Positions 24,945 to 29,500 of a stretch of 64,000 nucleotides of DNA are shown here, piece by piece. Source of the DNA: Miltoncostaea oceani. GTDB lineage: Bacteria; Actinomycetota; Thermoleophilia; Miltoncostaeales; Miltoncostaeaceae. Position 1 is the stretch's first letter. The number at the start of each line of letters is the position of its first letter. The stretch lies in the NCBI RefSeq assembly GCF_018141545.1, contig NZ_CP064356.1, forward strand, positions 2,307,001 through 2,371,000. Reading direction: 5' to 3'. The notes beneath the pieces were generated by a model that saw only the letters and a list, made by a program, of their open reading frames with translations, was not told the origin of the DNA and did not search any database. Position numbers and translations under genes: made by a program.

Positions 24945-25433
24945 TCACGCGGCCCCGGCGGGGCCGGGCGTCCCGGCGGGGAGGGCGGCCGGCTCGGGGG
25001 CGGCACGCACGACGACGCAGTAGGGGCCGACGGCGCGCAGTCGCGCACCGGCGATCTCGTCCTCACCGCAGACGATCGCGGTGATCTCCCCCGTCGCCTC
25101 GTCGAAGACGACGTCGGTGAGGGCGCCGACCGCGTTGCCGTCGTCGCCGAGCACGAGGCGCCCGTCGAGGTCGAGGTCCCCGTGGACGACGGCCTTCTCG
25201 TGGTCGTCGGCGGGGGCGCGGAGGGAGTCCTCGCCGGTGACCACGATGCCGTCGGGGCCGAAGCCGACGATGTCCGCCCACGCGACGAGCTCGGCCTTCC
25301 GGCGTCGTCCGCCGACGTGGAGCGCGGTGATGCGGTGGGCGCCGACGTCGACGACGACGTGCTTGAGGTCGCCGACCGTCTCGGCGCTGGCCCGGCTGAG
25401 CACGGGGCGCCCGTCGGCCTCGCTGAGGCGCAT
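24945..25433 (-). CDS. PRC-barrel domain protein (second copy)
   Basis: The 162-aa protein shows two PRC-like beta units: DLKHVVVDVGAHRITALHVGG with VAWADIVGFGPDGIVV, and ALTDVVFDEATGEITAIVCG with GARLRAVGPYCVVV. PRC barrels bind RNA, photosynthetic complexes or membranes. Here the role is unknown but probably stress-linked, given the downstream anti-sigma kinase. Its start overlaps the upstream PRC gene (TGATG, or GTG at 25436). The Ala/Pro-rich tail is likely disordered. Confidence 0.8.
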   Translation of the reverse strand: MRLSEADGRPVLSRASAETVGDLKHVVVDVGAHRITALHVGGRRRKAELVAWADIVGFGPDGIVVTGEDSLRAPADDHEKAVVHGDLDLDGRLVLGDDGNAVGALTDVVFDEATGEITAIVCGEDEIAGARLRAVGPYCVVVRAAPEPAALPAGTPGPAGAA

Positions 25434-26014
25434 CACGACGTGCCCTCCTTCAGCCGGGCCCGGAAGTCGGCGACGGCGCTGCCGAACCCGGAGAGGTCGT
25501 CGTGCACGAACTGCTCGGTGGCGGCGGGGACCATCAGGGTGGTGCCGGACACGGCGATGGTGTCGTCGACGGGGATCAGGAGGGTCGCGGCGGTGCGGTC
25601 GCGCGCGACGTCGGGGCCGTCGACCTCGAAGCCGACGATCGACGCGTCGTCGCCGACCTCGACGATCACGTCGACGACGGTGCCGAGTGCGGTGCCGGCG
25701 TCGGTCATGACGGTCGCGCCGATGACGTCGCGCTCACGGGCCTCGGCGGAGGCCGCGTCCATGACGGGGTCGCTCGCCACGAGGGCGCCGCCGTCGATCA
25801 TGACGGCGTCGCGGCCGAGGGCGCCGACGGCGCTCCACGGCAGCACCTCCTTGAGGGGCGAGCCGAGGAAGCCGCGCTTGTTGAGCGTGAAGCCGACGAG
25901 CGACGCCGAGCCGTGGGCGATGACGACATCCTTGACCTCGGCGATCGCCTCCCCGCCGTCGCGGGTCACCACCGGGCGACCGGTGATCTCACGGGCCCGC
26001 ATGAGGACGCTCAT
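25433..26014 (-). CDS. PRC-barrel domain protein (first copy)
   Basis: The 193-aa protein has MRAREITGRPVVTRDGGEAI, then a PRC core (VKDVVIAHGSASLVGFTLNK, then VLPWSAVGALGRDAVMI), then a second barrel (VIGATVMTDAGTALGTVVDV, then SIVGFEVDG). It is a distant paralogue of the next gene. The ATG overlaps the small membrane protein's stop as ATGA, and its own stop overlaps the next start, so the four genes form one coupled operon. Confidence 0.83.
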   Translation of the reverse strand: MSVLMRAREITGRPVVTRDGGEAIAEVKDVVIAHGSASLVGFTLNKRGFLGSPLKEVLPWSAVGALGRDAVMIDGGALVASDPVMDAASAEARERDVIGATVMTDAGTALGTVVDVIVEVGDDASIVGFEVDGPDVARDRTAATLLIPVDDTIAVSGTTLMVPAATEQFVHDDLSGFGSAVADFRARLKEGTS

Positions 26015-26130
26015 CGCCCGCGCCGCTTCCGCGCCGCGACCACGCCACCGGCGCGGCGCCGACGCTGCGCGACGACGCCGATCGCGCCGACGACCAGGAC
26101 GAGCACCACGATCGTGAGAAGGATCTCCAT
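26011..26130 (-). CDS. small single-span membrane protein (39 aa)
   Basis: This short gene encodes MEILLTIVVLVLVVGAIGVV followed by a very basic tail (AQRRRR, then AARKRRGR). It has one TM helix with a positively charged cytoplasmic end. A GGTGGGGGTGG ribosome site precedes the ATG, and the stop overlaps the first PRC gene as ATGA. The layout suggests it anchors or recruits the PRC-barrel proteins at the membrane. Confidence 0.7.
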   Translation of the reverse strand: MEILLTIVVLVLVVGAIGVVAQRRRRAGGVVAARKRRGR

Positions 26131-26246
26131 GCCGCCACCCCCACCGAAGGACCGGAACCTGCGGTGGGTGATGCCCCCGGGCGGCCCGCGGGACACCAGG
26201 CACCCGTCCCGCGGCGCGTCGCCCCGCCCCCGGCCGCGGGCGCCGG

Positions 26247-26591
26247 TCAGTCGAGGTCCCACCCGAAGTAGACCTCGATGGTCCGGATGCGGTCCCCGTC
26301 GAAGCCGAGGATCTCGGTGTTGCGGAACCGGGTGCCGTCGGCGCGCGTGCACTCGTACGTCACGAGCACCTCGTCGCCCGGGATCTCCCGGAGCCGGACG
26401 AACGCGAAGCCGGTGAGGGTCCCGGCGCCCGGCCAGCACCGGTCGAACCAGGCGGCGCGGTCGATGCCGACGTCGGGGGGCGCCGAGAACACAAGGTCGT
26501 GGTGGAGCAGTCCCTCGACGGCGTCGCGGTCGCCGGCGGCGAACGCCGCGTAGGAGGCGCGGGCGAGGGCGGTGCGGTCCGTGGTGGTCAT
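26247..26591 (-). CDS. SnoaL-like (NTF2-fold) protein
   Basis: The 114-aa protein has the NTF2-like pattern: ARASYAAFAAGDRDAVEGLLHHDLVFSAP at the N-terminus, a mid FDRCWPGAGTLTGFAF, and closing strands VTYECTRADGTRFRNTEIL and IRTIEVYFGWDL. Family members include SnoaL cyclases and steroid isomerases, but most are unassigned. A GGAGACCCG site precedes the ATG. It lies 116 nt upstream of the PRC operon on the same strand. Confidence 0.85.
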   Translation of the reverse strand: MTTTDRTALARASYAAFAAGDRDAVEGLLHHDLVFSAPPDVGIDRAAWFDRCWPGAGTLTGFAFVRLREIPGDEVLVTYECTRADGTRFRNTEILGFDGDRIRTIEVYFGWDLD

Positions 26592-26826: not shown

Positions 26827-27648
26827 ATGGGAACGGACACGGGTGAGCGCGGCACGATCGTCATGATCCACGGCTTCTGGGTGACCCCCCGCAGCTGGGA
26901 GAACTTCGTGGCCCACTACGAGGCGAAGGGGTACCGGGTGCTGACACCCGCCTACCCGGGGTTCGAGGTGGAGGTGGAGGCGCTCAACGCCGACACCGGG
27001 CCGATCGAGTCGATCACGGTGCCGCAGATCGTGGAGCACCTCGAGGCGGTGGTCGGGGCGCTGCACACGCCCCCCATCCTGATCGGCCACTCGGCGGGCG
27101 GCGTCTTCACGCAGGTCCTGCTCGACCACGGGTACGGCGCCTGCGGCGTCGCGATCAACTCGGCGCCCACGGAGGGCGTGGCGGTGGTGCCGCCGTCGCA
27201 GGTGAAGGCGGCGTTCCCGGTGCTGAAGAACCCCTTCAAGCGGCACGGGGCGGTCGGCCTCGACGCCGAGCAGTGGCACTACGCGTTCACGAACGGCATG
27301 GACGAGGAGCGCTCCCGGGCGCTGTGGGAGCGGTACCACGTGCCCGCCTCGGCGAGCATCTTCTGGGAGAGCGCCCTCGCCACCCTCCAGCCCGGCCACC
27401 AGGGCTAGTGGGTCGATTACCACAACGCCGACCGTGCCCCGCTCCTCTTCATCTCCGGCAGCGACGACCACCTGATGCCGCCGTCCGTGCAGCGCTCCAA
27501 CGCGAAGCACTACAAGGCCGAGGGGACGGTCACCGAGATCGTGGAGTTCCCCGGACCGCACCTGCTGCCCGCCGCCGACGGCTGGGAGGCCGTCGCCGAC
27601 CACGCGCTGGAGTGGGCCGAGCGCCACGCGCGGACGACGGCCGGCTGA
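26827..27648 (+). pseudogene. alpha/beta hydrolase interrupted by an in-frame amber codon
   Basis: The first 193 codons encode an alpha/beta hydrolase (IVMIHGFWVTPRSWENF, nucleophile Ser in IGHSAGGVF, and FKRHGAVGLDAEQWHYAFTN). A TAG at 27406-27408 stops this frame. The same frame then continues for 79 codons with the expected rest of the family: VDYHNADRAPLLFISGSDDH (acid Asp), MPPSVQRSNAKHYK, and FPGPHLLPAADGWEAVADHAL (catalytic His). Without the stop the protein would be 273 aa. It is a nonsense mutation, a sequencing error or a read-through. GGAGAGGTG is the ribosome site. Confidence 0.85.
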
Positions 27649-27671: not shown

Positions 27672-28463
27672 GTGGAGCCCCTCCGCATCACGCACGTCGG
27701 GGGGCCGACCGCGCTCATCGAGGCCGGCGGGTGGCGTCTGCTCACCGACCCCACCTTCGACCCGGCCGGTGGCGCGTACCGGTTCGGTTGGGGCACCGGG
27801 TCGCGGAAGACGGCCGGCCCGGCGGTGCCCGCCGCCGACCTCCTCCCCGTCGACGCGGTGCTGCTCACCCACGACCACCACGGCGACAACCTCGACGTCG
27901 CCGGGAGGGCGTTCCTGCCGTCCGCGGGCGTCGTCGTCACGACCGCCTCCGGCGCCCGGCGCCTCGGCGGGGCGGCCCGCGGGCTGCACCCCGGGGACGC
28001 GACGACGCTGGAGGCGCCCGGGCGTCCGGCCGTCGAGGTCACCGCCACCCCCTGCCGCCACGGACCGCCGCTCAGCCGCCCGGTGGTCGGCGACGTGATC
28101 GGCTTCGCCCTGGCGTGGGAGGGGCGGCGGGGCGTCCGGCTGTGGATCACGGGCGACACCGTCATGTTCGCCGGGCTCCGGGATGCCGCCGCGGCGATGG
28201 ACGTCGACGTGGTGGTGCTCCACATGGGCGGCGTGCGGTTCCCCGTGACCGGCCCCGTCCGGTACACCCTGACGGCCCGCGAGGCGATCGAGCTGATCGC
28301 CCTCGCGGACCCGCGCGTCGCGGTGCCCGTCCACTACGAGGGGTGGCGCCACTTCCGCCAGGGCCGCCCCGCCATCTCCCGCGCGCTGGCCCGCGCGCCC
28401 GCCGACGTCGCCCGCCGTGTCCGCTGGCTGCCGATCGGGGAGCCCACCACCGTCGATCCCTAG
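27672..28463 (+). CDS. MBL-fold metal-dependent hydrolase (UlaG-like)
   Basis: The 263-aa protein has LRITHVGGPTALIEAGGWRLLTDPTFD, the zinc motif LTHDHHGDNLD (HxHxxD), a later ATPCRHGP, the metal Asp in WITGDTVMF, and a C-terminal His in VPVHYEGWRHF. The set is typical of UlaG-like lactonases or phosphodiesterases of the metallo-beta-lactamase superfamily. The substrate is unknown. The GTG start lies 23 nt after the broken hydrolase gene. Confidence 0.88.
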   Translation: MEPLRITHVGGPTALIEAGGWRLLTDPTFDPAGGAYRFGWGTGSRKTAGPAVPAADLLPVDAVLLTHDHHGDNLDVAGRAFLPSAGVVVTTASGARRLGGAARGLHPGDATTLEAPGRPAVEVTATPCRHGPPLSRPVVGDVIGFALAWEGRRGVRLWITGDTVMFAGLRDAAAAMDVDVVVLHMGGVRFPVTGPVRYTLTAREAIELIALADPRVAVPVHYEGWRHFRQGRPAISRALARAPADVARRVRWLPIGEPTTVDP

Positions 28464-28507: not shown

Positions 28508-29500
28508 GTGCCCCACCGCACGGTCATGCTCCTGGCCTTCGAGGGCGCCGGCCTGCTCGACGTGTCGGGTCCGGCGGAGGTCTTCGCGGTCGCGAACGCC
28601 ATCACGCTGGGAGACGCGTACCGCGTCGTCATCGCCTCGCCCGACGGCCGCGACCCGGTGAGCAGCTCGGGGTTCCGGATCGGGGTGGCCGGCGCCGCCG
28701 GCGACGTCGCCGGCCCCCTCGACACGGTGATGGTCCCGGGCACGTGGACCTGGCCGGAGGCCATCGGCGACGCCGCGTTGCTCGCCGCGGTCTCCGACGC
28801 CGCCGCCCGCAGCCGCCGCGTCGCGGGGGTCTGCGTCGGCGCCCTCATCCTGGCGGCGGCGGGCCTGCTCGACGGCCGGCGGGCCACCACCCACTGGCAG
28901 TTCCTCGACGAGCTCGCCGGGCGCTTCCCCGCCGTGCGGGTCGAGCGCGGCCCGATCTTCGTCCGCGACGACGGCGTCTACACGTCCGCCGGCGTCAGCG
29001 CCGGCATCGACCTGGCGCTCGCGCTGGTCGAGGACGACCTCGGCGCCGCCGTCGCCCGCCGCGTCGCGCGCCACCTCGTGGTCTTCATGCAACGCCCGGG
29101 CGGCCAGTCGCAGTTCAGCGTCCGCCTCCGGGCCGAGCCGCCGGAGCGCTCCCCGCTGCGGGCCCTCCTCGACGCCGTCGCCGACGACCCCGCGGGCGAC
29201 CACCGCCTCGCCGCCCTCAGCGCGCGGGCGGGGTTCAGCGAACGGCACCTCACCCGCGTCTTCGCGCGCGAGCTGTCGACCACCCCCGGGCGGTACGTGG
29301 AGCAGGTGCGCGTCGAGGCCGCCCGGGCGATGCTCGAATCGTCGGACGCGTCCCTCGACGTCATCGCCCGCCGCTGCGGCCTCGGGTCGGCCGAGACGCT
29401 CCGCCGCGCGTTCGCCCGCACCGTGGGCGTCACCCCCCACGCCTACCGGCGGCGCTTCGCGACGACCGGCGTCGCCGCCCTCGCGCTCGACGAGGCCTGA
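28508..29500 (+). CDS. GlxA/FtrA-like AraC regulator with DJ-1/PfpI domain
   Basis: The 330-aa protein has an N-terminal DJ-1/PfpI domain (about residues 5-190: FEGAGLLDVSGPAEVFAVAN, then the nucleophile-elbow-like VAGVCVGALILAAAGLLDGR, then TSAGVSAGIDLALALVED). Its C-terminal AraC region has two HTHs (about 220-320: LAALSARAGFSERHLTRVFA, then LDVIARRCGLGSAETLRRAF). It probably senses a small metabolite and activates nearby genes. A YjbR gene follows after 9 nt. Confidence 0.92.
   Translation: MPHRTVMLLAFEGAGLLDVSGPAEVFAVANAITLGDAYRVVIASPDGRDPVSSSGFRIGVAGAAGDVAGPLDTVMVPGTWTWPEAIGDAALLAAVSDAAARSRRVAGVCVGALILAAAGLLDGRRATTHWQFLDELAGRFPAVRVERGPIFVRDDGVYTSAGVSAGIDLALALVEDDLGAAVARRVARHLVVFMQRPGGQSQFSVRLRAEPPERSPLRALLDAVADDPAGDHRLAALSARAGFSERHLTRVFARELSTTPGRYVEQVRVEAARAMLESSDASLDVIARRCGLGSAETLRRAFARTVGVTPHAYRRRFATTGVAALALDEA

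Follow-up and report, generated by a model that had tools for sequence, protein, structure and literature searches.

An internal amber codon in an accessory alpha/beta hydrolase gene of Miltoncostaea oceani is probably a recent nonsense allele

In-frame stop codons are reported, in the accessible part of a survey (PMC7918605), to be widespread in bacterial genes and often tolerated, with many of them keeping a dN/dS below 1, and the same part of that source describes them as tending to be short-lived, at the scale of population polymorphism. The gene considered here belongs with the serine-type alpha/beta hydrolases of the Abhydrolase_6 family (PF12697) and carries such a stop. It lies in a stretch of 64,000 nucleotides, referred to below as the window, that corresponds to positions 2307001-2371000 of the first contig (C1) of a 4.54-Mb genome in three contigs.

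The hydrolase frame occupies positions 26827-27648 of the forward strand, from an ATG at 26827 to a TGA at 27646-27648, and comprises 274 codons in all. Its sole internal stop is a TAG at 27406-27408 (codon 194), with TGG as the next codon, and the first-pass annotation, which had described an amber codon splitting an otherwise intact frame, placed it correctly. The 5' part, from the ATG to the in-frame TAG (26827-27408), holds 193 residues, among them the nucleophile motif GHSAG at residues 87-91. The 3' remainder (27409-27648), 79 sense codons and the TGA, carries the aligned Asp214 and His245, both of which are invariant in a seven-sequence alignment, and the Ser-Asp-His triad is not contained within one translated product unless the TAG is read through. 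When the stop is entered as X, the match to the Abhydrolase_6 profile found by hmmscan crosses it, covering residues 11-258 at 67.4 bits (cut-off 26.3). Third-position GC is 0.98 before the TAG and 0.96 after it. The open stretch after the TAG is no evidence by itself, because in this window of 76% GC the called genes run on similarly, staying open for 5 to 918 codons beyond their own stops. Each of 26 close relatives, however, shares 55-83% identity with the 79 codons of the 3' part over 69-73 columns, and on grounds of homology both sides of the TAG are one alpha/beta hydrolase gene. The earlier claim that the downstream part retains the catalytic Asp and His and matches its family is borne out, the 3' part aligning to all 26. 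A deletion near the catalytic His (GPH, where some relatives have GRSH) was considered as a second sign of damage and rejected, the short form being common to L112, L085, L086, L087 and others. The structure model predicted from seven sequences was poor (mean pLDDT 49.9), and a search of solved structures with the hydrolase sequence at an E-value of 1e-5 gave no match.

A scan of public genomes yielded six relatives (L029-L034), in Herbidospora, Streptomyces, Nonomuraea and Actinomadura, that match the hydrolase over residues 10-268, and further relatives came from two overlapping genome samples, one of the class (299 genomes) and one of the phylum (396 genomes). Of 62 other loci, 26 were aligned, being at least 55% identical, spanning the gene and having no frame-shift; the 36 left out were L098, a frame-shifted copy, and 35 loci below 55% identity, which include L102. 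No relative among the 26 has a stop in the amber column, where 19 have Thr, three Ser, two Asn and two Ala. The amber codon thus falls at a variable position, directly before the segment with Asp214 and His245. Thr, the residue of this column in 19 of the 26 relatives, has no codon closer than two changes to TAG, which is a point against the nonsense reading.

The part of the gene behind the stop bears no sign of decay. Ranked by mean identity among the 27 aligned sequences, the window copy is second behind the stop and nineteenth before it. At columns invariant in the other 26 sequences it departs at none of 20 behind the stop and at two of 38 before it. Its terminal branch measures 0.047 on the tree of the 3' part and 0.27 on the separate tree of the 5' part, these being raw FastTree lengths taken without a significance test. 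Relaxed selection behind the stop was accordingly rejected on all three measures; the 3' part is not accelerated and, if anything, the opposite is the case. It follows that the stop is young, or is a base-calling error, or is read through, and the conservation figures do not decide among a young stop, a wrong sequence and a 3' part that is still translated. Young is meant here relative to the distance that separates the gene from its relatives, about 30% of residues. We consider it probable that the TAG is a real and recent nonsense allele of an accessory hydrolase gene, little time having passed since the stop arose because the 3' part is among the best kept; against this it must be said that the lack of decay fits a base error and read-through equally well.

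If a mistake in base calling or assembly had produced the TAG, the organism would have an intact gene, and a 3' part kept as well as in intact relatives is what would be expected. A wrong base is possible, and the sequence comes from one assembly of one strain. In favour of an error, the hydrolase TAG stands alone: when the window was scanned coarsely for stops flanked on both sides by coding-like sequence, three candidates came up, and the other two are the junction of an AraC regulator with a YjbR protein and the junction of a response-regulator-like protein with a protein without a family match. The same scan, however, revealed no crop of other broken genes, and the assembly appears sound, with 3 contigs, completeness 100 and contamination 3.87. 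Moreover, one wrong base cannot turn the Thr found in 19 of the 26 close relatives into TAG, with the reservation that the ancestral residue of the window copy may itself differ. We therefore regard a sequencing or assembly error as rather unlikely, while giving it serious weight.

It is also conceivable that near-cognate decoding of UAG serves as a low-level switch, in which case a little full-length hydrolase would be made and the 3' part would remain under selection. Such read-through would suit both the unusually good preservation of the 3' part, which is the better conserved part of the window copy, and the reported abundance of in-frame stops with dN/dS below 1. None of the tests that were run supports it. 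A shared stop was sought in the 26 close relatives and found in none. The genome has 85 tRNA matches to Rfam, and ARAGORN, run on the stretches around all of them, called 84 tRNAs, namely 83 of the 85 and one more (C2:355819); 44 of these are on C1 stretches, 39 on the second contig (C2) and one in the window. The two Rfam matches that ARAGORN did not call are a shortened one with the loop CAU and a degenerate one, and the anticodon CUA occurs neither in these two nor in the 84. A search of the genome for PylS (TIGR02367) at an E-value of 0.001 gave no match. The gene for release factor 1, prfA, is intact and above the cut-off (432.1 bits against 423.25), and TAG terminates 10 of the 65 called genes in the window, that is, nine besides the hydrolase. 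Of 200 shuffled versions of the 101 bases from the stop on, 196 reach a fold no less stable than the original (z = +1.75), which is not the behaviour of a stimulating structure. We know of no reason to count TGG as a read-through signal when it is the following codon. Amber reassignment, pyrrolysine insertion and a suppressor tRNA were rejected on the absence of a CUA tRNA and of PylS, a prfA above its cut-off and the ordinary use of TAG, and low-level near-cognate decoding appears improbable to us. Of the three explanations offered by the first-pass annotation, a recent nonsense mutation, which we favour, and a base-calling error thus survive, and programmed read-through, which the annotation had held to be notable, finds no support.

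The preferred explanation, a recent nonsense mutation, can be set out as follows. A mutation would have created an in-frame TAG at a variable position, shortly ahead of the enzyme's final segment, ribosomes would stop at codon 194, and the resulting product of 193 residues would keep the nucleophile Ser and miss the acid and the His. Without these two residues the product should be inactive, as far as can be predicted from its sequence. The presence of the stop in the organism itself, its recent origin and the inactivity of what it leaves are inferred; the stop in the sequence, the homologous remainder, the intact relatives, the lack of decay behind the TAG and the failure to find an amber-decoding tRNA are observed. 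The opposite view, in which the truncated protein is functional, for example as a binding protein or a regulator, and the stop is adaptive, can draw on the fact that the first 193 residues still match Abhydrolase_6 at 58.9 bits, which is over the cut-off. It is opposed by the loss of two of three catalytic residues, by the finding that none of the 26 close relatives ends at this point and by a remainder without visible relaxation, and we find it hardly credible.

The hydrolase gene is followed, 23 bases after its final stop, by an intact gene for a metallo-beta-lactamase-fold hydrolase of 263 amino acids (Lactamase_B_2; 27672-28463, forward strand). With a start codon of its own, this partner may still be produced despite the stop, perhaps in a lower amount. 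A Lactamase_B_2 partner lies beside the hydrolase on the same strand in eight of the 62 other related loci (six of the 27 that reach 55% identity). The matched stretches of the pair are 9-82 bases apart, and the two genes form a conserved two-gene unit in those eight. Further downstream is a gene for an AraC-family regulator with a DJ-1/PfpI domain (28508-29500, forward strand), and upstream, in divergent orientation, a gene for a SnoaL-like protein (26247-26591, reverse strand); neither has a match in the 62 other loci, most of which come with only 1.5 kb of flank.

A search of 36 other genomes of the family found no close copy of the gene, the best match by E-value (4.6e-11) being 28% identical. 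The hydrolase is likewise missing from the other three genomes of the genus, two of which are only 86-92% complete. At the DNA level, one genome of the genus (G001) matches window positions 24984-26142, to the left of the hydrolase, at 77%, and within the hydrolase the comparison with the genus gives just short matches of 29 and 44 bases. When plasmids were searched with the hydrolase protein, 35 records matched, three at 60-80% identity, and they contributed nothing further. Judged from its occurrence, the gene is accessory, and it is probably dispensable. Its loss recurs: two of the 12 other genomes with matches of at least 60% hold it only in pieces: in G259 (C1:3298308-3299103) it continues in two abutting frames at residue 90, and in G227 (C1:2848808-2849342) it consists of pieces 9-104 and 172-272, with residues 105-171 missing. 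These broken copies could themselves be assembly errors. In the more distant L102 (41% identical) there is an in-frame stop at aligned residue 18.

The inventory of tRNA genes drew attention to the second contig. C2 (0.816 Mb) carries tRNA arrays at 351661-362802, 489089-502221 and 671024-671634 (L065, L066 and L067), and its 39 ARAGORN tRNAs with 36 anticodons are nearly a second set beside that of the chromosome; ordinary tRNAs for Lys, Leu (caa, taa, tag), Ser (cga, gga) and Val (tac) are absent from it. The accessible part of one source reports plasmid-borne tRNA arrays in mycobacteria (PMC5966550). Coverage of the main C2 array reaches 80% in no plasmid record, the matches being to single tRNA genes or a few of them. 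The same contig also has a third class-I release-factor-like gene (L147 6771-7442, minus strand; G000:C2:766770-767441) with RF-1 and PCRF domains and the motif GPGGQ, the two others being prfA and a weaker match on the chromosome. The earliest start codon of the C2 gene falls within the PCRF domain, whereas the profile match extends upstream to 767606; to judge from the reading frame, this gene may encode a variant factor or be a 5'-truncated copy.

The chromosome carries tRNA-Lys genes with the anticodons CTT and TTT, and ARAGORN finds no ordinary tRNA-Lys on C2. C2 has instead two units on the minus strand, at C2:501872-501786 (L066 15873-15787) and C2:501650-501565 (L066 15651-15566), in which a 3' half of 38 bases is followed by a linker of 14 or 12 bases and a 5' half of 35 or 36 bases, the break in both falling after the second anticodon base. 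The halves resemble those of tRNA-Lys, and we checked this by joining them. Joined in normal order, the halves are called by ARAGORN as tRNA-Lys(CTT) for unit 1 and tRNA-Lys(TTT) for unit 2, and crosswise joins are called as tRNA-Lys too. The T-stems of the two units differ at both partners of a base pair that is maintained. Such paired changes speak against simple decay, although the units could also descend from different isoacceptors. A point against a clean tRNA is that in minimum-energy folding joined unit 1 forms a cloverleaf in part only and joined unit 2 does not form one. With introns allowed, ARAGORN reads the region otherwise, taking a 5' half from unit 1 and a 3' half from unit 2 to make an intron-bearing tRNA-Glu. 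One more such 'intron tRNA' call, on L065 (13233-13402), was put down to chance in view of its sequence. A further tRNA-like sequence, degenerate and shortened in its anticodon arm (L066 15719-15653, minus strand, 31.7 bits), lies directly between the two units.

The pattern of a 3' end, a linker and a 5' start occurs in the genome at these two places only, and a reversed control pattern at none. With one mismatch allowed, the junction of the 5' half is absent from all other genomes in the samples of the class (398) and the phylum (395), the reversed control giving one match each in three phylum genomes, and in its exact form it is absent from viral contigs; the junction and linker patterns are narrow, and diverged permuted genes would be missed. 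A blastn search gave no plasmid match and, against phages, matches of at most 14% coverage at ordinary tRNA-Lys genes, records of the genome itself being possibly omitted there. RtcB ligase was not found in the genome. We regard the two units as candidate circularly permuted tRNA-Lys genes on the strength of their arrangement, and broken or interrupted tandem tRNA genes are a possible reading of them. Permuted tRNA genes are listed for archaea and algae, and none for bacteria, in the accessible part of a 2014 review (PMC4033280), a literature search at the level of titles found no bacterial case, and a permuted, two-piece tmRNA is known in bacteria according to the part of a further source that was available (PMC3978253). 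Set in a bacterial tRNA array, these units are of more interest than the hydrolase stop.

The hydrolase by itself matters little, since it only adds another case of an accessory gene with a young nonsense allele or a base error, and its stop looks like an ordinary one that calls for no new reading of the genetic code. It does serve as a warning that a conserved open frame behind a stop does not indicate read-through. Compared with the Abhydrolase_6 family, the window hydrolase is alike in its profile, in its GHSAG motif and in the order of the acid and the His, and differs in being broken by a TAG before these last two. Its relatives L029-L034 are 66-71% identical to it and none of the six is interrupted within the matched stretch, whereas the window copy has the TAG; three of them (L030, L032 and L033) are then followed by the same metallo-beta-lactamase-fold partner. 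The in-frame stops described in the accessible part of PMC7918605 likewise have a conserved remainder behind them, and that survey focuses on stops shared by at least two species, whereas the stop in the window is found in a single genome.
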